A stretch of DNA of 64,000 nucleotides from Methylobacter sp. BlB1 (GTDB lineage Bacteria > Pseudomonadota > Gammaproteobacteria > Methylococcales > Methylomonadaceae), in NCBI RefSeq assembly GCF_015476545.1, contig NZ_JADMKV010000017.1:1-64000 (forward strand). Reading direction: 5' to 3'. The notes beneath the pieces are model-generated. The model was not told the origin of the DNA, made no database searches, and worked only from the letters and a program-made list of their open reading frames with translations. The translations under genes were made by a program, and so were the position numbers. Positions within the stretch are counted from its first letter, which is position 1. Every line of letters starts with the position of its first letter. Positions 32,166 to 43,273 of the stretch are shown here, one piece after another.

Positions 32166-33164
32166 ATGACCGCCAGCTCATCCCTACAACGTCTCGCCTT
32201 GACGCCGGGCGAACCCGCCGGCATCGGCCCCGATCTCTGCGTTCAGTTGGCCCAGCAGGATTTGCCCTGTGAAATCGTCGCCATCGCCAGCCCGGATTTA
32301 TTGGAGCAGCGTGCCCAGCAATTGGGTCTGAAAATCAGGATAAAAACCTTTGACAGCACGCTGCCGCCCAGCCCCCAGCAAGCCGGCAGCCTGACCGTGC
32401 TGCCCGTTGAACTGGCGGAACCGGCCCAATGCGGCCGCTTAAACCCGGCCAACAGCCGCTATGTGTTGAAAACGATTACGAAAGCCACCAAAGGCTGCAT
32501 GGAGGGTTTATTCGATGCGTTGGTGACGGGTCCCGTGCACAAAGGCATCATCAATGACGCCGGTTTCACGTTCAGCGGTCATACCGAATATATCGCTGAT
32601 ATTACCGGCGGCCATCCGGTCATGATGCTGGCCACGCCCGGCCTGCGCGTGGCGCTGGTCACGACTCACCTGCCTTTGTCGGAAGTCAGTGCGGCCATTA
32701 CCCATTCGCGGTTAAGAGCCGTGCTGTGCATACTGGATCAGGACCTGCGCTCGCGCTTCAAGCTGGACAATCCCCGCATCCTGGTCTGCGGCCTGAATCC
32801 TCACGCCGGCGAGAGCGGCCACCTCGGCCGCGAGGAAATCGAAGTCATCGAGCCGGTACTCGACAGTCTGCGCAAGCAGGGCCTGAATCTGCAAGGCCCG
32901 CTGCCGGCCGATACGCTGTTCACGCCGAAATATCTGGCATCGGCCGATGCCGTATTGGCGATGTACCACGATCAGGGACTGCCCGTGCTCAAGCACATGG
33001 GCTTCGGGCAGGCCGTCAACATCACACTGGGCCTGCCGATCATCCGCACGTCCGTGGACCACGGCACGGCCCTGGATCTGGCCGGCACCGGCAAAGCCGA
33101 AATCGGCAGCCTGCTCAGCGCCATAGAAACCGCATTACTCATGGCAACCAACACACCCCGATAA
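32166..33164 (+). CDS. pdxA: 4-hydroxythreonine-4-phosphate dehydrogenase
   Basis: PdxA oxidises 4-phosphohydroxy-threonine in the DXP-dependent pathway to pyridoxal phosphate. The 332-residue protein begins [20 protein letters not shown], has the substrate site [21 protein letters not shown] with a metal His, and the [12 protein letters not shown] element with further metal ligands. The rsmA start lies one base after its stop, the same pdxA-rsmA pairing as in many gammaproteobacteria. Confidence 0.97.
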
Positions 33165-33165
33165 C

Positions 33166-33954
33166 ATGGCCCATATACCACGCAAACGCTTCGGTCAGAA
33201 CTTTCTGCACGATTACCGGATTATTTACGACATTATTTCCAGCCTGCAGGCCCGGCCCGGCGACCATTGGGTCGAAATCGGCCCGGGCCAGGGCGCACTG
33301 ACCGAACCGCTGCTGAAAGAGGGCGTGCACCTTGATGTGGTCGAACTCGACAGGGACCTGGTCGCGCTGCTCAGGGAAAAATTCAAGCAGCGCGACAACT
33401 TGCGCATCCACAGCGCCGACGCCCTGAAATTCGATTTCGCGACGCTGGCCGACGACAGCCGGAAACTGCGCGTCGTCGGCAACCTGCCCTACAACATCTC
33501 CACGCCGCTGATGTTCCATCTGCTGGATAATGCGGCCTGCATACAGGACATGCATTTCATGCTGCAGAAGGAAGTCGTCGACCGGATTTGCGCCGCGCCC
33601 GGCAGCAAGAAATACGGCAGGCTCAGCGTCATGATGCAGTATCACTGCGCAACCGAACTTTTATTTGATGTCCCGCCCGAAAGCTTCGATCCGCCGCCCC
33701 AAGTCATGTCGGCGATCGTGCGCTTGATTCCGCATCAGCAGCCGCCTGTCGAAGTGCATGATGTCGCCAAACTCAACAAAGTCGTCACGCAAGCCTTTTC
33801 GCAACGGCGCAAGACGCTACGCAATTCCCTGAAAACATTGATTGCCGAGGAAGATATAGAAGCCCTGAACATAGATCCGACGCTACGGGCCGAAATGATT
33901 TCGCTGAGCGATTTCGCCAAACTGAGCAATCTGTTGCAAAACGATGCCGCCTGA
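33166..33954 (+). CDS. rsmA: 16S rRNA dimethyladenosine transferase
   Basis: RsmA (KsgA) dimethylates two adjacent adenines in helix 45 of 16S rRNA during small-subunit maturation. The 262-residue protein has KRFGQNFLHDYR at the start, the SAM motif VEIGPGQGALTEPLL, the catalytic NLPYNIS motif and FSQRRKTLRNSLK near the end. It follows pdxA after one base. Four bases after its stop begins the tandem 15-bp repeat of the first small-RNA-like locus. Confidence 0.97.
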   Translation: MAHIPRKRFGQNFLHDYRIIYDIISSLQARPGDHWVEIGPGQGALTEPLLKEGVHLDVVELDRDLVALLREKFKQRDNLRIHSADALKFDFATLADDSRKLRVVGNLPYNISTPLMFHLLDNAACIQDMHFMLQKEVVDRICAAPGSKKYGRLSVMMQYHCATELLFDVPPESFDPPPQVMSAIVRLIPHQQPPVEVHDVAKLNKVVTQAFSQRRKTLRNSLKTLIAEEDIEALNIDPTLRAEMISLSDFAKLSNLLQNDAA

Positions 33955-33957
33955 GCT

Positions 33958-33987
33958 GCGACAATCCGCCACGCGACAATCTGCCAC
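33958..33987 (+). repeat. Tandem 15-bp direct repeat upstream of sRNA-like locus 1
   Basis: Two head-to-tail units (GCGACAATCCGCCAC at 33958-33972, GCGACAATCTGCCAC at 33973-33987) differ at one base. They begin 4 bp after the rsmA stop and end exactly 27 bp before the putative -10 box. The same arrangement is seen at 41683-41712, so these may be binding sites for an activator. Confidence 0.75.
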
Positions 33988-34020
33988 ATTCTAAAGAATA
34001 TTATTTATTGCTAATATAAT

Positions 34021-34105
34021 CTCAATTCTTGAGATGCACTCTCTTTTTAGAGACTTTAGAATTATCCTCCTAATGTAATGCGGCCTTCGTGGCCGCATTT
34101 TTTTT
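34021..34105 (+). ncRNA. Candidate small RNA gene, copy 1
   Basis: A -10 box TATAAT (34015-34020) is followed by a dyad (TCTCAA-TTC-TTGAGA, 34020-34034) over the expected start site, a short stem around TTTT (TCTCT/AGAGA, about 34040-34053) and the conserved block AGAGACTTTAGAATTAT. A pyrimidine-rich stretch with CCTCC comes next, then an 8-bp terminator stem. No ORF fits. A paralogue at 41746-41829 shares these blocks at the same spacing. The exact start (near 34027) is inferred. Read-through from rsmA could also make it as a 3' fragment. Confidence 0.6.
34078..34105 (+). terminator. Intrinsic terminator of sRNA-like locus 1
   Basis: ATGCGGCC (34078-34085) and GGCCGCAT (34091-34098) form a perfect 8-bp stem with a TTCGT loop, followed by a run of eight T. 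It also ends pdxA-rsmA transcription. Confidence 0.92.
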
Positions 34106-34223
34106 ACCTGCCATTTCCGTTTTATTCATGCACACGAGAGCCTTGTCTCGTGTATGACGCTGCCCCAGACAAGACCGGTCCACTCTATAGAATATTGACC
34201 AAACTATGGACGTGCGAGAGATA

Positions 34224-35225
34224 TCAGAGGTGATCAAACATCTTATGATCGAGAGCCGCTTCTTGAATGTGCTTTAGATGCGATTTTGTGGTCTGTACCT
34301 GTTCCGCACATTGCTGTGCTGTCGCCTCGTCGCCGCGCGCGCGTGCCATCTTCTCCATCTCTCCCAGCAGCAGCATGCGCTCGTTGGCGACCCGTACTGC
34401 ACTCCACAACGCCATTTCAACCTCTTCGTTAACATCCGCCATCAATGTCTGGAGCGAATAGGCATGGCCTGTATGACAGCGGTAACGGGTAATTGGCCCT
34501 TCCTCGATTTTGGTCAACACGCCTTTGCACTCCGGACAGGTGTTGGGTGAAATCGATCCTAACTGCATGATTTCCCCCGGTCTGACTCTGGCCTCCAACG
34601 TAACACGGTTTTCAATTCGGGGTGTGTCAGCAATTACGGCATCTCCAATATCGATGATGGGTTTATTGATCAATTGGGCGATGACTCGCGGCATATGAGC
34701 AACGGGGAGCGTGTAATCAACGTCCACATGCCGAAGCACACTTTCCGGCATCGAGGCGTGTTTGGCTTCCTCGGGCGATTGCACCAGCACAACGCCGCCG
34801 CGATCCTTGATCGCCCATGCCCCCGCAGTTCCGTCGTCAAGCAAGCCGCTAAGCACAACCCCGATCACGCGCGGCCCAAATGCATACGCCGCCGAGCGGA
34901 ACAGCACATCGATGGCAGGACGCACCCGGTTTTCCTTGGGCCCGTGCGTCACCCGGAGACGACCTTCCTCCAACATCAGATGGCGGTCCGTCAGGGCTAC
35001 GTATACGCGGCCCGGAACGATCGGTTCACCGTCAATGGCAGGTGTCACAGAAAGCGCCCCGGCGCGTGCAAGTATGGCATCGAGATAGCTTGGAATATGC
35101 GGAGACAGATGGAGCACCACCAGGACTGCGGCCGGCAATGTTGCAGGCAAGCCCGCAACGAGACTCTCCAGAGCAGGAATGCCGCCAGCCGATGCCCCTA
35201 CGACAATAATATCTCGGTGAGCCAT
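34224..35225 (-). CDS. Stand-alone CheB-type methylesterase domain protein
   Basis: The 333-residue protein has an N-terminal CheB esterase domain with the catalytic Ser in VGASAGGIPALES, His in LHLSPHIPSYLD and Asp in LSGLLDDGTAG, but no receiver domain. The C-terminal part (about residues 220-330) has a zinc-ribbon-like CPECKGVL...RYRCHTGHAY motif and a helical tail. No chemotaxis operon is nearby and the next genes on the other strand encode a CheB-CheR fusion and a hybrid kinase, so it probably acts in a non-chemotactic signalling system. Its true substrate is unknown. Confidence 0.85.
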   Translation of the reverse strand: MAHRDIIVVGASAGGIPALESLVAGLPATLPAAVLVVLHLSPHIPSYLDAILARAGALSVTPAIDGEPIVPGRVYVALTDRHLMLEEGRLRVTHGPKENRVRPAIDVLFRSAAYAFGPRVIGVVLSGLLDDGTAGAWAIKDRGGVVLVQSPEEAKHASMPESVLRHVDVDYTLPVAHMPRVIAQLINKPIIDIGDAVIADTPRIENRVTLEARVRPGEIMQLGSISPNTCPECKGVLTKIEEGPITRYRCHTGHAYSLQTLMADVNEEVEMALWSAVRVANERMLLLGEMEKMARARGDEATAQQCAEQVQTTKSHLKHIQEAALDHKMFDHL

Positions 35226-35437
35226 AAATCCTCCGGGTTAAAACGCCTGTCAATGCGACCGCCTGTACATCAGGCCTTTTGCATGATATGCGTAGCGGAA
35301 GCGGTCCTGCAAAAATTATCCGACTCGGACTGTCCCGCCATCCAAATAACTAAAGACAAAAATTATATTTAAGGATTCAACTTCCAAACTGGCAGACATC
35401 GCACATCCCGATGATGCCCTATTTGAATAAGCGTTTC

Positions 35438-35457
35438 GGGTCGAATGAATTCGACCC
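35438..35457. repeat. Short palindrome (REP-like)
   Basis: GGGTCGAA (35438-35445) and TTCGACCC (35450-35457) form a perfect 8-bp stem with a 4-base loop. Its sequence resembles the repeat arms at 12046-12080 (GGGCGAAT), which suggests related extragenic palindromes. Confidence 0.4.
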
Positions 35458-35498
35458 TACAACGGCGTAACATCAGTTAATAATTTCTGTTGTAAGTG

Positions 35499-35583
35499 CA
35501 GCCTTACTCAGTGAAATCACTTATATTCATAAATCGTAAGGCTGGTTATACTTCAGCCTTGCTACCGAATTTTTTATTCGGTA
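35499..35583 (+). other. Competing hairpins in an intergenic region
   Basis: CAGCCTTAC (35499-35507) can pair with GTAAGGCTG (35536-35544). The same middle segment can instead pair, as AAGGCTG (35538-35544), with CAGCCTT (35554-35560). A further perfect stem TACCGAAT-TTTTT-ATTCGGTA (35563-35583) follows. Mutually exclusive stems are a feature of attenuators and switches, but the next gene is 380 bp away. This may be part of an unannotated transcript or the remains of a repeat. Confidence 0.35.
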
Positions 35584-35963
35584 AATAATCGCTGGCCGAA
35601 TAATAAGCCGAAAATGGCAACAATTAGGAAGGGTTTACTTAGAATATAAAAGGTCATCTCATAAATTTCTTTCATATCCTGTTCGTTATCAACTTTAACG
35701 AGCCAAACTGATTCCAGGCAGGTTATATTCAAATAGTTCGAGATATTTTTATAAACCCGAACGTCCTCATCCTCTCTACTGTCTATATGTCATTCGTAGA
35801 CTACAAAAGCGGATGGATCGGTTTGACTTTGTGCCAAATTGGCTGAATTCAGCCACAATTCGCCTAAAAAATCGGCAATTATCAGATTCGGTCCGAACTT
35901 ATAAACCCAAAACATCGAGGGCGATTGTTTATTTTTACCCAGTAATTAATCGTTTATATATCA

Positions 35964-38960
35964 GTGAAAAAAAGTTCGTCAGTTGATCATACATTCCCTA
36001 TTGTGGGCATAGGCGCCTCGGCAGGCGGCCTGGAAGCCCTGCAAGAGTTTTTTGGAGCCATGCCGGCCGATAAAGAACTCGCTTTTGTCATCGTTGTGCA
36101 CTTAGACCCCAATCACGTCAGTCTGTTGCCCAACCTGTTGCAAAAACACACGACAATCAAAATCGCCCAGATTACTGACGGCCTGCAGGTTAAGCCGAAC
36201 AACATCTACATTATTCCGCCCAATAAAAGCCTGACTATTTTCAACGGAAAACTGCATCTGGCGGAGCTGGGGTCTCCCCGCTTCAGCCATTTGCCCATCG
36301 ATATTTTCTTCCGTTCGCTGGCTCAGGACCAGGGCGACAAGGCGATCGGCATTGTTCTATCGGGCACCGGCTCCGATGGCAGTCTGGGTTTGATGGAAAT
36401 CAAGGCGGCAAACGGGCTCGTGATCGTGCAGGATGAAGCGTCCGCTCAATATACCGGTATGCCGAAAAGCGCCATCAATACAGGCGTTGCCGATTTCATA
36501 CTGTCGCCCGACAAAATGCCGGCCCAACTCATCCAATATTCTCAGTACCGGGAGGGTATCAATGATCGCCACATCGTCCAATTACAGAATATCGACGTTT
36601 TTCTGCAAAAAATATTTTTTCTGATTCACAATCAGACCGGCCACGATTTCTCGATGTATAAAAAAAACACGATCTGCCGGCGCATCGAACGACGCATGCA
36701 ATTGCGGCAAATAAGCAATATGGCAGACTATGTCACTTTCTTGCAGAAAAACGAGCAGGAGATTGGCATCCTGGCCAACGAACTATTCATCGGCGTGACC
36801 AGTTTTTTCCGGGATACTGAAGCCTATGATGTGCTCCAGAGCAAGATTCTGCCGGCATTCCTCAACCAAAAGCCCAACAATTATACCCTGCGTGTCTGGG
36901 TTCCCGGCTGCAGCACAGGCGAAGAAGCCTATTCCATCGCGATCATTATTCAGGAATGCCTCGATAATATAAAACATGCCATCAACGTGCAGATTTTCGG
37001 CACCGATATTAATGAAAATGCCATTGAAAAAGCGCGCAGAGGGATTTACCTGTCCGGCATTGAAAACGTCGATATCAGCCCTGAGCGCCTCAAACGCTTT
37101 TTTATCAAGGAAGACAATAGCTACCGGATTAAGAAATCCATTCGGGAAATGGTGGTCTTCGCGCCCCAAAATATCATTAGCGATCCGCCTTTTACCAAGC
37201 TGGACATTATCAGTTGCAGAAATCTGCTGATTTATTTCAGATCGGAATTGCAAAGAAAAGTCCTGCAAACATTCCATTACAGCTTAAAAGAAGATGGCAT
37301 CATGTTTCTGGGCCCTTCAGAAACAACGGGGCAATCCGATCGTTTTTTCTCCGTACTGGACAAAAAATGGAAAGTTTTCCGTCGAACCCCTGTTGCCGAA
37401 ACGATTCCCAGATCCCTGCATCTCCTTGAATCACCGTCTCATTCGATGATCAACGACGATATGAAAATGCCCGACTCTATGCAGAAAGCAGAAGAATTAA
37501 GTATCATGCAACTGGTTGAAGCTATCCTCAGGCATAGCTCGGTGCCGCCCTGCGCGATTATCGACGCCAAGAGCAACATCATCTATGTGCATGGCAGGCT
37601 GGGCAAATATCTGGAACCTGCGGAGGGTAAAATCAGCGTCAATATTGTCGACATGGCTCGTTTCGGACTAAAAACGGAACTGGCGGCCGGGATTCGTCAG
37701 GCCTCCCAGAGCCGAAAAAAAGTACAGAAAAAAGTCTATGCCATCCAGCAGGATGGCAGCCAGATCAGTGTAGATATGACGATCAGCCCCATTATGGAGT
37801 TCTCGCCCATCCCTGGACTTATCATGGTGACTTTCGAAGATGTGTCGATGGAAAATCTGATAAAAACGGAAACAGCAAAGCTCTTGCCGACCACGGCGGA
37901 AGAAGTCGCAAAGCTGCAGCAGCAATTGGATTTCACTAAAGAAAGCCTGCAAACCACCATCGAAGAACTGGAAACCTCAAATGAAGAACTCAAATCGACC
38001 AACGAAGAGCTCCAGTCCACCAATGAGGAATTGCAGAGCACGAATGAAGAACTGGAAACGTCAAAAGAAGAATTGCAGTCGCTGAATGAAGAGGCCGTGA
38101 CCGTCAATGCGGAGCTGCAAAGCCGTATCGACGAATTGCAGACCGCCAATGACGATATGAAGAACCTGTTTGACAGCACGCAGGTTGCCACGCTGTTTCT
38201 GGACACCAAATTCTGTATCCGCCGTTTTACACCCAAAGTCAAGGAACTCATCAACTTGGAGGCCGGCGATGTCGGGCGCCCGATTGCCCATTTTTCCTCC
38301 TCTCTGCAAAATCCGGATTTGACGGGCCATGCCAGTGAAGTGCTGAGAACGCTCAGTAAGCATGAATCTGAAATCTGCGATGATCAAGGCCGCTGTTTTT
38401 GTGTACGCATCCTGCCCTATCGCACTACCAATAATGTCATTGATGGCGTAGTCATTACCTTTGAAGACATTACCGTTAGGAAAGAAGTCGAGCAAGCCCT
38501 CATCAATAACGAGAAACGCTATAAACGCATGATTGATTTCTGCCCCGTCCCGATGTGGGAAAACGATTTTTCCAAGGTTGCACAGACTTTACACGCGCTT
38601 CATGATCAAGGCGTAACTGATCTTGCCGCTTATCTGGATAAACATCCACAGGAGCTGAAAGAACTGTTAAAAAAAGTGCAGGTTTCGCATGTCAATAATG
38701 CGGCTATGGTGTTGTTCAGAGCCGGCGACAAGGAAAAGCTGGCATTAACTATCCAGGGATTACTTACCCGGCGTTCAATCCAGCCTTTTATAACGCAGCT
38801 GCTGGCCATCTGGGACAGAAAAGACAAGTTCAGCTTTGAATGCCATTGCGAAGACCTGCAGGGAAATCCATTAACTTTAAATCTGGAATGGGCGGTCCCC
38901 ACGGATGAGGACCGGTTAAATTACGACAACGTGATTGTCGCGTTGCCACGCTTACGTTAG
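35964..38960 (+). CDS. CheB-CheR fusion with PAS domains
   Basis: This 998-residue signalling protein has, in order, a CheB methylesterase domain (residues about 10-190, GIGASAGGLEAL, HLDPNHVS, LSGTGSDGSLG), a CheR N-terminal domain and SAM methyltransferase domain (about 205-475, WVPGCSTGEEAYS and SCRNLLIYF), and a PAS-like segment (about 500-640). A long coiled coil of repeated EELQSTNEELQSTN units (about 645-715) leads to one or two PAS domains up to the end. Both methylation activities look intact. It begins with GTG, is 31 bp from the hybrid kinase and probably works with it. The target is not a classic chemoreceptor in this window. Confidence 0.9.
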   Translation: MKKSSSVDHTFPIVGIGASAGGLEALQEFFGAMPADKELAFVIVVHLDPNHVSLLPNLLQKHTTIKIAQITDGLQVKPNNIYIIPPNKSLTIFNGKLHLAELGSPRFSHLPIDIFFRSLAQDQGDKAIGIVLSGTGSDGSLGLMEIKAANGLVIVQDEASAQYTGMPKSAINTGVADFILSPDKMPAQLIQYSQYREGINDRHIVQLQNIDVFLQKIFFLIHNQTGHDFSMYKKNTICRRIERRMQLRQISNMADYVTFLQKNEQEIGILANELFIGVTSFFRDTEAYDVLQSKILPAFLNQKPNNYTLRVWVPGCSTGEEAYSIAIIIQECLDNIKHAINVQIFGTDINENAIEKARRGIYLSGIENVDISPERLKRFFIKEDNSYRIKKSIREMVVFAPQNIISDPPFTKLDIISCRNLLIYFRSELQRKVLQTFHYSLKEDGIMFLGPSETTGQSDRFFSVLDKKWKVFRRTPVAETIPRSLHLLESPSHSMINDDMKMPDSMQKAEELSIMQLVEAILRHSSVPPCAIIDAKSNIIYVHGRLGKYLEPAEGKISVNIVDMARFGLKTELAAGIRQASQSRKKVQKKVYAIQQDGSQISVDMTISPIMEFSPIPGLIMVTFEDVSMENLIKTETAKLLPTTAEEVAKLQQQLDFTKESLQTTIEELETSNEELKSTNEELQSTNEELQSTNEELETSKEELQSLNEEAVTVNAELQSRIDELQTANDDMKNLFDSTQVATLFLDTKFCIRRFTPKVKELINLEAGDVGRPIAHFSSSLQNPDLTGHASEVLRTLSKHESEICDDQGRCFCVRILPYRTTNNVIDGVVITFEDITVRKEVEQALINNEKRYKRMIDFCPVPMWENDFSKVAQTLHALHDQGVTDLAAYLDKHPQELKELLKKVQVSHVNNAAMVLFRAGDKEKLALTIQGLLTRRSIQPFITQLLAIWDRKDKFSFECHCEDLQGNPLTLNLEWAVPTDEDRLNYDNVIVALPRLR

Positions 38961-38991
38961 CAGCACATATCGACGTATCGGGGTTAAGCTT

Positions 38992-41046
38992 ATGTTAAAC
39001 AAAGTGGATAAATTCTATGAATTGAGGCGGCGGGCGAAAGAGCTATTAACTGCACATCATCCATCATCAGCTCCCTATTCAATGGAAGAACTCCTTAACC
39101 TGTTGCAGGAATTGGATACGCACCGGATCGAACTGGAATTACAAAACGACGAGCTGCTCAAAACCCAACAACAACTTCAGGAAACAACGCAGGAATATCT
39201 CGATTTTTATCATTATTCCCCGGTCGGCTACCTCACTCTCAACAGTGAAGGCATCATTCTTAAAGCCAACATGACGCTACGCGGCCTGTTCGGCATTGAA
39301 CAAAAAGCCATTATCAATAAGCCTTTTTCCGATTTTGTGCTGGACCTCGACCAGGATGTCTTATATTTCTATCGTCAGGCCTTGTTAAACCATAAAAGCG
39401 TCCAAAGCTGCGAATTGCGTTTGCGCAGAAGTGATGGCCAAACGGTATGGGTTAAGCTGTCTGGCTTGTCTCAAAAAGCCCAGCGAGGGCATCATTTCAG
39501 GCTGGCAGTCACAGACATCCATGAATTAAAGGAAACGGAAGCACTGCTGAGCGAAAATGAAGCGGATTTGCGCGCCATTTTCGATAGCGTCATCGCTGGT
39601 ATTATCAGAGTTAATGAGCGCGGCTTCATCGAATCGGCCAATGCCGCTGCCGAGAGTATTTTCGGCTTTTCCACTGCGGAAATGATCGACAGCCCTATCA
39701 GCGGATTAATGCCCAAACTCGACTGGAAGGCATATGAAGCTCAACTGGCTTGCCGTAAAGACGATTGCAAAGATCAGATTGCCGGCATCCGGCAAGAGCT
39801 GGAGGGCCTTAGAAAAGACGGTTCGCTGTTTCCGGTAGATATCGGCATCAGTGAAATCGGCAATGGCAAATCCCGTGACTTCATTATCACTATCCATGAC
39901 ATCACCGAACGCAAGCAGATGGAAATAGCGCTTCGGCAAGCCGATCATCAGAAAAATGAATTTCTGGCCATGCTGGGACACGAACTCAGAAATCCTCTGG
40001 CCCCTATCCGCAATGCCGTGCAGGTGTTGAAAACTCAAGGTTCCGTGAACCCCACGCTGGACTGGTGCGGCAAGATCATCGACCGGCAGGTCAATCATAT
40101 GGCATTATTGCTCGACGATTTGCTGGACGTAGCTCGCATCATGCGGGACAAAATCACGCTTAAGATTGACCTTGTCGACTGCAACGAGATTATAGACAGT
40201 GCCGTAGAAATCAACTTGCCGCTGATACAGTCCCGCCAACAGGAGCTGGTCGTTTCCCGCCCGGAAACACCGATATGGATCGAAGGTGATCGTGTCCGAT
40301 TGACTCAGGCGCTGTCCAATCTGTTGAACAACGCCACCAAGTACACTGATGAGAAAGGCAGGATCATCCTGAAGGTGATGCAGGAAAATGGCGGCTTGGT
40401 GATTAAAGTACAAGACAACGGATCAGGCATTCCGCCGGAGATACTGCCTCACATTTTTGACCTTTTTACTCAGGCCGACTCTTCTTTGGCCCGATCCCAA
40501 GGCGGTCTAGGCATCGGACTTACGCTGGCGCGCAGATTGGTCGAAATGCATGGAGGAACGATCAGTGCATCCAGTGCGGGCAGTCAGCAGGGTAGTGAAT
40601 TCATTATGCGTCTGCCATTATCCGATGCGTCTGCGGCTGTCGAATCAACACAAACCGACACTGCTCTGCTAAAAGACAGGCTGCGTATCTTACTGATAGA
40701 TGATAATGCCGATGTCGCGGAAAGTCTTGCCCTCCTGCTGCAGATAGAAGGGCACGAGGTCGATACTGCAGACTGCGGCTTAAAAGGCATAGAAAAAGCA
40801 CAGGCTTTCCGGCCTCAAGCTGTCCTGCTGGACATCGGCCTTCCTGATATTAGTGGTTATGAAGTTGCCAGACGGTTGCGCGAGTTGCCGGAAACACGAC
40901 AAGCGTGCTTAGTCGCCATCAGCGGATATGGACAGCCTGAAGATCACGAGCAGTCAAAGTCCGCCGGCTTCGACCATCATCTGCTTAAACCAGTAGATCC
41001 CTCGAATTTATTTGCTTTGTTGGCGACTTTAAAGAACCAAACCTAA
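38992..41046 (+). CDS. PAS-containing hybrid histidine kinase
   Basis: The start at 38992 (MLNKVDKFYELRRRAKELL) has GGGG upstream and avoids overlap with the previous gene. The 684-residue soluble protein has a short coiled coil, two PAS domains (about residues 60-185 and 190-310), a HisKA box with the phospho-His in FLAMLGHELRNPLAPIRNA, an ATPase domain (LLNNATKYT, DNGSGIPPEI, GGLGIGLTLARRL) and a C-terminal receiver with the phospho-Asp in AVLLDIGLPDISG. Output must pass to another regulator. The pairing with the CheB-CheR fusion suggests a joint methylation and phosphorylation pathway. Confidence 0.92.
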   Translation: MLNKVDKFYELRRRAKELLTAHHPSSAPYSMEELLNLLQELDTHRIELELQNDELLKTQQQLQETTQEYLDFYHYSPVGYLTLNSEGIILKANMTLRGLFGIEQKAIINKPFSDFVLDLDQDVLYFYRQALLNHKSVQSCELRLRRSDGQTVWVKLSGLSQKAQRGHHFRLAVTDIHELKETEALLSENEADLRAIFDSVIAGIIRVNERGFIESANAAAESIFGFSTAEMIDSPISGLMPKLDWKAYEAQLACRKDDCKDQIAGIRQELEGLRKDGSLFPVDIGISEIGNGKSRDFIITIHDITERKQMEIALRQADHQKNEFLAMLGHELRNPLAPIRNAVQVLKTQGSVNPTLDWCGKIIDRQVNHMALLLDDLLDVARIMRDKITLKIDLVDCNEIIDSAVEINLPLIQSRQQELVVSRPETPIWIEGDRVRLTQALSNLLNNATKYTDEKGRIILKVMQENGGLVIKVQDNGSGIPPEILPHIFDLFTQADSSLARSQGGLGIGLTLARRLVEMHGGTISASSAGSQQGSEFIMRLPLSDASAAVESTQTDTALLKDRLRILLIDDNADVAESLALLLQIEGHEVDTADCGLKGIEKAQAFRPQAVLLDIGLPDISGYEVARRLRELPETRQACLVAISGYGQPEDHEQSKSAGFDHHLLKPVDPSNLFALLATLKNQT

Positions 41047-41081
41047 ATTTTTGGCAGTTATTAAGCATCACTGTGCCGCCT

Positions 41082-41501
41082 CTAGTTATCGCTTTCAAGC
41101 CGCTTGCCAAGGCTAACGACATTATCATTTTTATAGCCTATCGCCTCGTAGAACTTGATCACGTCAGTATTAGTCTGGCGAACCTGAAGATTTATTTTGG
41201 GGCAGCCTTTCTGCTTGATGAGCCCTTCAACAAACGCCACGAGCTGACGGCCGTAGCCTTTTCGCTGATGCGCCGGCGCAACAGCCAGATAGTTGATCCA
41301 GCCCCGGTGGCCTTCATAGCCGCCCATGACCGTTGCGATAATACCGCCTGCTATCTCGCCGACAATGAACAGATCCGGGTCCACTTTCAACTTTCTCTGG
41401 ATGTCCTTGTAGGGATCGTTCCACGGCACAACCAGATTGCACTCATGCCATAGCTTGACAACACTATCTTGGTCTTTCGCCTCAAACGTCCGTATTTGCA
41501 T
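41082..41501 (-). CDS. ypeA: GNAT acetyltransferase (YpeA-like)
   Basis: The 139-residue protein is a GCN5-related N-acetyltransferase with the acetyl-CoA motif AVAPAHQRKGYGRQLVAF and the C-terminal NTDVIKFYEAIGYK. Length and sequence resemble YpeA/YhbS-type enzymes whose substrates are mostly unknown. It is convergent with the hybrid kinase gene, about 35 bp apart, and shows no operon partner. Acetyl transfer to a protein or small amine is inferred only from the family. Confidence 0.85.
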   Translation of the reverse strand: MQIRTFEAKDQDSVVKLWHECNLVVPWNDPYKDIQRKLKVDPDLFIVGEIAGGIIATVMGGYEGHRGWINYLAVAPAHQRKGYGRQLVAFVEGLIKQKGCPKINLQVRQTNTDVIKFYEAIGYKNDNVVSLGKRLESDN

Positions 41502-41682
41502 AGACTGACTCCTGATGACAGCTAACCTGGCGCATCCGGCCCGTTGGCCCCGTTATCGCTAAAATAAAATGTTTCATTATTCACCTGCCTTGATCAACAA
41601 ATTGCCGACCTGAAAAGTGCGCGCCTCGCCAAGAACGCTTACCCGCCTGTTAAATTCATGGACAAAAACGTGCTTTAGCCCT

Positions 41683-41712
41683 GCGGCAATCTGTCACGCG
41701 ACAATCTGCCAC
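41683..41712 (+). repeat. Tandem 15-bp direct repeat upstream of sRNA-like locus 2
   Basis: GCGGCAATCTGTCAC (41683-41697) is followed directly by GCGACAATCTGCCAC (41698-41712). The second unit is identical to the second unit at 33973-33987. The distance to the -10 box is again exactly 27 bp, which argues for functional binding sites rather than chance. Confidence 0.75.
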
Positions 41713-41745
41713 ATTCCAGCACTTATCATTTGCCGCTAATATACT

Positions 41746-41829
41746 CTCAATTCTTGAGATGCGATCTCGTATAGAGACTTTAGAATTATATCCTTCTTCA
41801 AATGCGGCTTTAACGGCCGCATTTTTTTT
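41746..41829 (+). ncRNA. Candidate small RNA gene, copy 2
   Basis: A -10 box TATACT (41740-41745) precedes CTCAATTCTTGAGATGC, identical to copy 1 for 17 bases, then a short TCTC...GAGA stem and the block TAGAGACTTTAGAATTAT, identical for 18 bases. A variable pyrimidine-rich stretch comes next, then a terminator stem (ATGCGGCT/GGCCGCAT, 41802-41822, one G-U pair) and eight T. The stem thus survives a base change. The locus lies in a 605-bp gap (41502-42106) with no gene on the same strand, so it is not simply a terminator of a neighbour. Start near 41752 is inferred. Confidence 0.62.
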
Positions 41830-42106: not shown

Positions 42107-42406
42107 ATGACAACAGTAGCAGACCCTATTATTGGAAGCTGGTATAAAGACGTAGAGAACAATCTGATGTTTAAAGTCGTTGCGATTGAAGAAAGCGACG
42201 ATTCAATCGAAGTCCAATATTATAACGGCGATATCGGCGAATACGATCATGACAGCTGGTATAACTCGACCTTTGATTATATCGAGGACCCAGAGGACTG
42301 GAGCGCGCCGTTTGACGATCTCGAAAACGACGATCTGGGTTATACGGACCCTGACGACCATCGGCCTAGCCCTGACGATATGGATATCGAAGATTATCTG
42401 GATTAA
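42107..42406 (+). CDS. Small acidic protein (DUF6763-like)
   Basis: The 99-residue protein is strongly acidic (tail DDLGYTDPDDHRPSPDDMD) with a compact beta-rich N-terminal part (PIIGSWYKDVENNLMFKVVA) in which Trp and Tyr recur. I place it in a small conserved gammaproteobacterial family (DUF6763, from memory) without known function. A GAGGT ribosome site precedes the ATG. It is 15 bp from the P-loop ATPase gene, so the two are probably co-transcribed. Confidence 0.75.
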   Translation: MTTVADPIIGSWYKDVENNLMFKVVAIEESDDSIEVQYYNGDIGEYDHDSWYNSTFDYIEDPEDWSAPFDDLENDDLGYTDPDDHRPSPDDMDIEDYLD

Positions 42407-42421
42407 TTAGGAATTTATCAC

Positions 42422-43273
42422 ATGAAAATGAGTCCCCGGGAATTCCTGGACTGGCAAACGAAAAGAGTTACCCTGCTGGCAATGTCCGGTGCGGGGAAAA
42501 CCACGCTGGCTAATAAGCTGCCGAAATCCAAATGGTTTCACTATTCCGGCGACTATCGGATAGGCACGAAATACCTGGAAGAGCCGATCCTGGACAATAT
42601 CAAGCGCCAGGCCATGCGTGTGCCGTTCCTGCGCGAGTTGCTGCTGTCCGATTCCATTTATATCGCCAACAAGATAACCGTGGACAACCTCGCGCCTGTA
42701 TCGACTTTTCTCGGCAAACTTGGGAATCCCGAACTGGGCGGTTTATCCTTACAGGAGTTCAAGCGCCGGCAAAAACTGCATCATCAGGCTGAAATCGCAG
42801 CCATGAATGATGTGCCGGAGTTTATTCACAAGGCTGAAGACATCTACGGCTACAAGCACTTCATCAATGACGCCGGCGGCAGCGTTTGCGAACTGGACAG
42901 CCCGGAAGTGCTGGAGACCCTGGCCCAAAATACCTTGATCATCTATATCAAAATTCCGCCGGCCATGGAGCAGATCATCATCGAGCGCGCCAAAACCGAT
43001 CCCAAGCCGCTCTATTACCGGGAAGCGTTTCTTGATGAAAAGCTGGCCGAATTCATGTCGCTGCATGGCTACGCTGATCCTAATGCCATACCGCCCAATG
43101 AATTTGTCACCTGGGTTTTCCCTGAATTGTTCAAATCCCGTCTGCCCCGCTATGAAGCGATCGCCGAACAGTATGGCTATACCGTCGACGCGCGCGATGT
43201 CGCCGAAGTGAAAGACGAAGACGACTTTATCAGATTGATTGCCGATGCGATTGCCAGGCAGCAATCCAATTAA
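42422..43273 (+). CDS. P-loop ATPase/kinase-like protein of unknown function
   Basis: The 283-residue soluble protein opens with a Walker A motif (LLAMSGAGKTTLANKL, about residue 18-33) followed by a segment like a nucleotide kinase. It has an INDAGGSVCELDSPEVLETL part and an alpha-helical C-terminal half. I recognise it as a conserved ATPase-like family but no function is established. It sits between the acidic small protein and metA (12 bp), suggesting a shared operon. A phosphotransfer or chaperone-like role would be guesswork. Confidence 0.75.
   Translation: MKMSPREFLDWQTKRVTLLAMSGAGKTTLANKLPKSKWFHYSGDYRIGTKYLEEPILDNIKRQAMRVPFLRELLLSDSIYIANKITVDNLAPVSTFLGKLGNPELGGLSLQEFKRRQKLHHQAEIAAMNDVPEFIHKAEDIYGYKHFINDAGGSVCELDSPEVLETLAQNTLIIYIKIPPAMEQIIIERAKTDPKPLYYREAFLDEKLAEFMSLHGYADPNAIPPNEFVTWVFPELFKSRLPRYEAIAEQYGYTVDARDVAEVKDEDDFIRLIADAIARQQSN

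Follow-up and report, generated by a model that had tools for sequence, protein, structure and literature searches.

The described systems closest to the two loci analysed here, which lie in a 64,000-nucleotide (nt) stretch of Methylobacter sp. BlB1 (contig NZ_JADMKV010000017.1, positions 1 to 64,000 of the forward strand; hereafter the window), are small RNAs (sRNAs) with unpaired CU-rich stretches. In known sRNAs, such stretches have been predicted to mask ribosome-binding sites, and those of the double-hairpin RNAs ncS03, ncS05, ncS27 and ncS62 (Rfam family RF02278) are described as complementary to these sites, a common upstream motif being reported for three of the four (PMC5688073). Bordetella S17 is placed here beside these RNAs as a similar double-hairpin system (PMC11722255), and Neisseria NmsR is summarized as two homologous sRNAs whose CU-rich stretches are complementary to the ribosome-binding regions of tricarboxylic acid cycle genes (PMC5688073). 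PcrZ of Rhodobacter sphaeroides is described as an sRNA of the photosynthesis network controlled by PrrA, a RegA homologue, in an arrangement likened to an incoherent feed-forward loop (PMC4263372). Among methanotrophs, native sRNAs have been reported from the type II organism Methylosinus sporium 5, namely EcpR1 and alpha-r45 (PMC12403871); for type I methanotrophs our literature search turned up only synthetic sRNA (PMC7720504, PMC10355033), and nothing describing the window family came up in the search on native methanotroph sRNAs, the other listings being judged by title or the beginning of the abstract.

The window units resemble the RF02278 RNAs in their two hairpins, unpaired CU-rich stretch and several homologues per genome, a likeness of architecture only and not of homology, and differ from them in bacterial group, sequence and outer helix. 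With NmsR they share homologous siblings carrying unpaired CU-rich stretches (a likeness by description, not by sequence), whereas a RegA-type box goes unmentioned in the summary of NmsR given in PMC5688073; PcrZ, likewise compared by description and not by sequence, differs in being alphaproteobacterial and in concerning photosynthesis genes. No Rfam family reached its gathering score anywhere in the window, which agrees with the first-pass annotation, a preliminary reading of this DNA in which no known RNA family had been recognised. The RF02278 model (gathering score 50) gave no row for the window copies, its best match in the genome (20.6 bits) lay elsewhere, and it had no match in 201 genomes of the taxonomic family in a search whose controls were silent too; membership was rejected, the covariance model being unmatched. 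Also rejected were ncS025 (RF02869; 19.8 and 17.4 bits against a gathering score of 46), MicF and suhB (no row, or below gathering score) and SorX (RF02784). The last was the best weak Rfam match of copy 1, with 25.2 bits and E = 1.4e-4 in a 106-base search, below the gathering score of 46.6; it was not listed in the 301-base search of copy 1 and gave no row for copy 2 in the 301-base search, the sole length run for that copy. The window RNAs thus appear to form a new RNA family, of a kind already known, with uncommon wiring.

The two loci are probably paralogues, each a stand-alone gene for a trans-acting sRNA of about 82 nt, and members of a sibling family of gammaproteobacterial methanotrophs that would be under RegA control. 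The boxes, placed just upstream of and over the -35 position, would be bound by a response regulator, for which RegA of the RegB/RegA redox system is the most likely candidate, and this would activate a promoter with a -10 element and no evident -35 element. The transcript, possibly with the participation of Hfq, would form an outer helix enclosing a nested stem, leave a CU-rich stretch exposed and close with a terminator that has eight U; the CU-rich stretch would pair with the ribosome-binding sites of messenger RNAs, blocking their translation. The siblings, several in number and slightly different in seed, would all answer one signal, and one of them lies divergent to regB. Probably the sRNAs tune metabolism when the redox balance shifts. 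Methanotrophs are a biological methane sink and candidate industrial hosts; the outcome presented here is an sRNA family that is conserved and multi-copy, for which exact coordinates are given, the box is defined and a candidate regulator can be named.

The two units and their conservation

The units lie in the intergenic segments 34015-34105 and 41740-41829; a search of the whole genome aligned them over 107 nt with 83% identity (E = 5.8e-23). Both contain, in the same order, a -10 region, an identical block CTCAATTCTTGAGATGC, a short variable stem, the block TAGAGACTTTAGAATTAT, likewise identical, a pyrimidine-rich stretch that varies and an intrinsic terminator; this order had been given in the first-pass annotation and is borne out by our comparison. 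The only sense-strand open reading frames (ORFs) of at least 20 amino acids (aa) that overlap the units, of 22, 51 and 30 aa, all begin within a unit and exit past its terminator, so that neither unit contains an ORF, as had been stated. Each unit has, by sequence, the marks of an sRNA gene, namely its own promoter, a terminator, no ORF and a conserved fold. In the 4.87-Mb genome no third place was found at E <= 0.001; the window units are its only close copies, and hence they are not an ordinary extragenic repeat present in many copies, the outcome that had been named as a refutation.

In minimum free energy (MFE) predictions both copies adopted a common fold, in which the outer helix AAUUCU/AGAAUU encloses a nested stem and is followed by an unpaired CU-rich stretch and the terminator. 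The predicted folding energy from the putative start is -24.8 kcal/mol for copy 1 and -21.8 kcal/mol for copy 2, and folding z-scores of -3.96 and -2.39 were obtained, computed from the start positions of the first-pass annotation. The short stem described there is present, nested, however, inside an outer helix that had gone unreported, while the proposal that a C-to-U change in the terminator stem is tolerated by G-U pairing proved correct in the fold.

In relatives the outer helix reads AACUCU/AGAGUU, a swap between C-G and U-A on both sides; the sequence of the nested stem varies freely, and the CU-rich stretch is retained across the family. Bases 4-6 of the first helix are paired in 70 of 81 distinct family sequences (MFE folds). 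We aligned 124 matches (103 distinct rows) to R1, a covariance model built from 31 transcripts including both window copies. In this alignment, which was fitted to the structure and holds related sequences, so that its figures lean towards the structure, 93.9% of the cells were paired, and changes on both sides were observed in 14 of 21 pairs against a shuffled mean of 7.4, a value reached in none of 500 shuffles; with the partner columns shifted by 1-3, pairing fell to 18-58%. By these counts, base-pair covariation across the family is strong.

BLAST matches at E <= 0.01 were found in 74 of 201 genomes of the taxonomic family, a tally that takes in matches to the terminator alone, and two copies were found in each of the four genus genomes. 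The covariance-model search of related genomes that had been suggested earlier was carried out with R1 under Infernal's stricter filters, by which weak members are missed. At a threshold of E <= 0.001, 179 of 311 genomes from the order were matched, spread over 28 of 50 genera; among these 311, every matched genome belongs to the window's own family. All 53 named stretches with the RNA core pattern are from Methylococcales (Methylobacter, Crenothrix, Methylovulum and uncultured members). One bearer of the sRNAs is Methylobacter tundripaludum SV96, a cultivable relative (L054 and L098). The arrangement of the copies varies: some are single, some stand in tandem at intervals of about 170-240 bp, and some are separated by roughly 7 kb; relatives carry tandem arrays of 2-4 units. 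The gene ksgA is present in 28 of the 53 stretches, and in 27 of these, as at copy 1, it is followed on its own strand by the upstream box described below, which starts at most 104 nt away; in the remaining one, from Methylovulum miyakonense, the box is at 1.8 kb. Conservation with the same anatomy, the covariation and the rigid placement of box and -10 element support the earlier idea of a duplicated, regulated sRNA gene.

Promoter anatomy and further siblings

Transcription presumably starts at the A of AAYTCT, three bases earlier than the 34027 and 41752 proposed at first (Table 1). In 82 distinct promoters an 18-bp box GCGACAATNTGNCACATT begins at -51 (77 promoters) or -50 (five), its position being measured via CRCATT, which lies 39 (77) or 38 (five) nt before AAYTCT. 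At a fixed distance from the box stands a -10 element, whose bases -12 (T), -11 (A) and -7 (T) are each found in 79 of the 82 promoters; a -10 box had been noted before, and it is its position that needs correction to that of the conserved TAATAT in Table 1. By eye, no sigma-70 -35 element is evident at the correct spacing in the window copies, where the box ends at -34, and a sigma-54 promoter was likewise rejected, TTGCT at 34008 having no GG at the required spacing. Some copies, including both in the window, carry a second box directly upstream, forming a 15-bp direct repeat. Accordingly, the upstream similarity of the window copies reaches two repeats of the type GCGACAATCYGCCAC in each (33958-33972 and 33973-33987; 41683-41697 and 41698-41712).

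A position matrix of the box was trained on the 82 promoters, both window copies included, with a lowest training score of 24.6; besides the two proximal boxes the best site in the window scores only 8.4. Among 33 R1 matches outside the motif training set, listed by hand (L283 was left out, and L172 and L259 are one place), 29 have a box scoring at least 12 within 80 nt, and 26 of these boxes start at -51 or -50. R1 contains no promoter sequence, and the chance level was 142 in 20000 random 80-nt stretches from the loci examined. Two of the four failures are L172/L259, where the R1 match starts too late and misses the box. A box scoring at least 15 was present at all 18 loci taken from further genera and the genus, four of which (L292-L295) come from genomes used in motif training.

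A strict form of the box, GYGACANNNTGNCRC, gave 16 matches at 15 places in the genome against 8 with a reversed control pattern. Three places are in the window promoters, eight fall within ORFs of 247 to 717 codons, and at each of the other four (L161, L169, L170 and L172) the box stands before an sRNA-like unit that has a terminator, the box of L170 also overlapping a 265-codon ORF. R1 matched L170 (37.6 bits), L161 (35.5 bits) and L172 (27.1 bits), at E from 1e-5 to 0.002, and had no match to the unit of L169, whose fold differs. Since these three join the two window copies, the genome appears to have at least five family members; the earlier report of two paralogous loci thus holds, with the additional siblings and the upstream box having escaped it.

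The sibling at L172 (1368-1515, contig C184) represents a second sRNA class, divergent to regB, with the core AACUUU...GAAAGUUGCGUUAUAU and the box between sRNA and regB; this class was also seen at L259, L262, L263, L266-L271, L274 and L281, with core variants in L267, L270 and L281. In a third class the terminator ends just upstream of an ORF with a HEAGH motif (L161 on contig C44, L285, L288, L290, L299, L302 and the second unit of L032, L032:1055-1132). These ORFs have 210-233 aa where intact and 87 aa in L299, and the HEAGH protein of L161 had no Pfam match; a sibling of this class might act as a leader. At L169 (contig C149) the box GTGACAATTTGCCAC lies between a gene and the sRNA-like unit, the terminator stem of which is GGGAGCUUAA.

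The candidate regulator and competing explanations

A RegB/RegA pair is encoded in tandem on contig C184. The best NCBIfam matches, NF033792 (ActS/PrrB/RegB) for RegB with 217 bits and NF033791 (ActR/PrrA/RegA) for RegA with 188 bits, are below the curated cut-offs of 350 and 250, respectively, and cover nearly the whole models. RegB contains GGASNPI and RegA Asp59 (D59), which are given as features of the working RegB/RegA system in Methylomonas sp. DH-1 (PMC13274454). L172 is the intergenic region between regB and the divergent sRNA; its box, which with a score of 31.5 equals the median sRNA box, stops 80 nt short of the regB start. Among the best 30 regB loci of the family search, 11, our own included, have the box upstream of regB, always oriented away from it, and all 11 boxes face a unit containing a CU-rich stretch; the core AGCTGAAAGTTGCGTT is exact in eight of these units and varied in three. 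Sites of RegA/PrrA are described as a degenerate GCG inverted repeat (PMC4263372), and the symmetry of the box fits this description. RegA is a good candidate for the protein that binds the box, and we regard this assignment as quite likely.

Several observations speak against it, and some of them would be expected if the sRNAs were real and the box were bound by another regulator, of two-component or Fis type, with regB merely one of its targets. In Methylomonas sp. DH-1, RegA was located by chromatin immunoprecipitation at the feo promoter, the sole promoter where that study saw RegA (PMC13274454), and no box scoring at least 6 was found at the five feoB loci (L130-L134) of the four genus genomes. 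An upstream box scoring at least 12 is absent from 19 of the 30 regB loci, two of which offer less than 140 nt upstream. Among the 61 genomes searched for both there is likewise no co-occurrence of the sRNA with RegB: the two are found together in 39, RegB only in 13, the sRNA only in eight and neither in one. The RegB search scored at most 23 candidates per genome, and the eight RegB absences are weak evidence, since scoring was complete in one of these genomes (G017) and reached 23 of 37-64 candidates in the other seven. True RegB may be rarer than counted, as for 12 of the 52 genomes with RegB the best match listed spans only the kinase half of the model. Besides, the boxes of some siblings are weak (6.0 at L161, 9.7 at L170). 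On the other hand, a near-perfect box stands beside regB here and before regB at ten other loci, its symmetry agrees with what is described for RegA-type sites, and the strict box outside long ORFs always precedes sRNA-like units, one of them divergent to regB, with the overlap at L170 as noted above. Weighing these points, we hold control by a different regulator to be rather unlikely.

The units might instead be short terminated leaders (attenuators) of downstream genes, as is suggested by the sibling of L161, which ends 17 nt before the start codon of its HEAGH-motif gene, a placement recurring at the other loci of that class. The window copies are hard to accommodate here, since the gene after copy 1 (CheB, 34224-35225) is encoded on the other strand and, on the strand of copy 2, the next gene, for a DUF6763 protein, begins 278 nt downstream; arrays in which 2-4 units follow one another at intervals of about 170-240 nt are also hard to read as leaders of one gene, and we assess this explanation as very improbable. 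Even less credit can be given to a non-transcribed or decayed extragenic repeat. It could be argued from the two copies within 8 kb; yet there are only two close copies in the genome, the pairs show compensatory changes, the promoter spacing is rigid in 82 promoters, and the place after ksgA is conserved. We infer that the units are transcribed as sRNAs and that RegA would act on them as an activator.

Candidate targets and genomic setting

If the CU-rich stretch of these putative sRNAs serves as seed, its exposed part has the family-consensus form UUAUAUCCUUCUU in copy 2 and reads UUAUCCUCCU in copy 1. A partial target search of the four genus genomes with the pattern AGRAGGATAN{1,8}ATG gave 15 matches in the genome of the window against one with a reversed control. 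One of them is at pmoB, where the same string and the PmoB start were found in all four genus genomes; the genome encodes both PmoA (PF02461, 434 bits) and PmoB (PF04744), which, with the Methylococcales origin of the stretches bearing the RNA core pattern, marks the host as a gammaproteobacterial methanotroph. PmoB aligns well with 6cxh, though many residues differ. Two further matches are at fchA (a label given to an FTCD_C-family cyclodeaminase; same string in G053) and zwf (glucose-6-phosphate dehydrogenase; same string in G029), which may be considered candidates from this partial search. Behind the start of the remaining matches there are ORFs of 74 to 270 aa in four cases and at most 30 aa in eight. 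The list is only suggestive, because strong Shine-Dalgarno sites match the seed by nature, and ranking the matches against 44 window genes is circular, because they were chosen with that seed.

Of 30 family loci, 28 retain the pmoB ribosome-binding site AGAGGAGGATATATG unaltered, and in two it has one base changed. Mean pairing, calculated over 30 pmoB and 29 pmoA starts of the best 30 loci of the search (two of the pmoA starts, L242 and L251, being mis-called), was -15.2 kcal/mol for the copy 2 seed at pmoB against -6.8 kcal/mol at pmoA in the same operon; for the copy 1 seed the gap was smaller, -15.0 against -11.8 kcal/mol. The pmoA start also has a strong Shine-Dalgarno site, and this contrast within one operon is the least circular check on targets, by which pmoB is a candidate and not an established target. 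A strikingly conserved hairpin resembling CTCTATTATAGAG was observed before the pmoB ribosome-binding site in many of the loci L225-L254.

A complete redox RNA circuit can be drawn tentatively, though as a whole we find it doubtful. Over-reduced quinones would act through RegB/RegA on at least five sibling sRNAs, which would switch off translation of pmoB, fchA and zwf at their ribosome-binding sites, and the regB-divergent sibling, sharing its operator region with regBA, would close a feedback loop. We know of no sRNA control of methane monooxygenase, though no search was aimed at this point; if this enzyme is indeed a target, an RNA layer would be added to the control of methane oxidation. 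Indirect RegA targets are reported in Methylomonas sp. DH-1 (PMC13274454), and sRNAs of this kind could be the intermediary behind them.

Table 1. Positions of the sRNA units, their promoter elements and a conserved neighbour in the window
Feature	Position	Strand	Basis and remarks
sRNA copy 1	34024..34105	+	putative start A34024, end within U-run 34098-34105; 75.5 bits with R1, in the building of which both copies were used
sRNA copy 2	41749..41829	+	putative start A41749; 71.8 bits with R1 (same remark)
Distal box GCGACAATCCGCCAC, copy 1	33958..33972	+	sequence; head-to-tail with proximal box, an arrangement recurring in copy 2 and some relatives
Proximal box GCGACAATCTGCCACATT, copy 1	33973..33990	+	-51 to -34; score 30.6; presumed RegA site
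Distal box GCGGCAATCTGTCAC, copy 2	41683..41697	+	sequence and box scoring
Proximal box GCGACAATCTGCCACATT, copy 2	41698..41715	+	score 30.6
-10 element TAATAT, copy 1	34012..34017	+	conserved across promoter set
-10 element TAATAT, copy 2	41737..41742	+	conserved across promoter set
Outer-helix 5' arm AAUUCU, copy 1	34024..34029	+	pairs with AGAAUU 34058-34063; MFE and two-sided C-G to U-A change in family
CU-rich stretch UUAUCCUCCUAAUG, copy 1, presumed seed	34062..34075	+	first two bases in outer helix; unpaired from 34064 (MFE)
CU-rich stretch UUAUAUCCUUCUUC, copy 2, presumed seed	41786..41799	+	family-consensus form; first two bases in outer helix
Intrinsic terminator, copy 1	34077..34105	+	sequence, MFE fold; helix 3 with 98.7% of alignment cells paired
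pdxA-ksgA pair, upstream of copy 1	32166..33954	+	Pfam PF04166, PF00398; conserved neighbour, recurs in relatives

Between the copies (34224-41046) the window encodes a CheB-family methylesterase, a CheB/CheR/PAS fusion and a PAS histidine kinase with a receiver domain. The genes between the copies in G029 match those of the window (CheB, CheB/CheR, histidine kinase and acetyltransferase), those in G074 match only CheB/CheR and the kinase, and in G053 the interval is longer, with the CheB/CheR match in two stretches, plus the kinase and the acetyltransferase. Downstream of copy 2 (42107-43273), the DUF6763 protein is accompanied by a 283-aa protein without Pfam match; both are also found in G029, G053 and G074.

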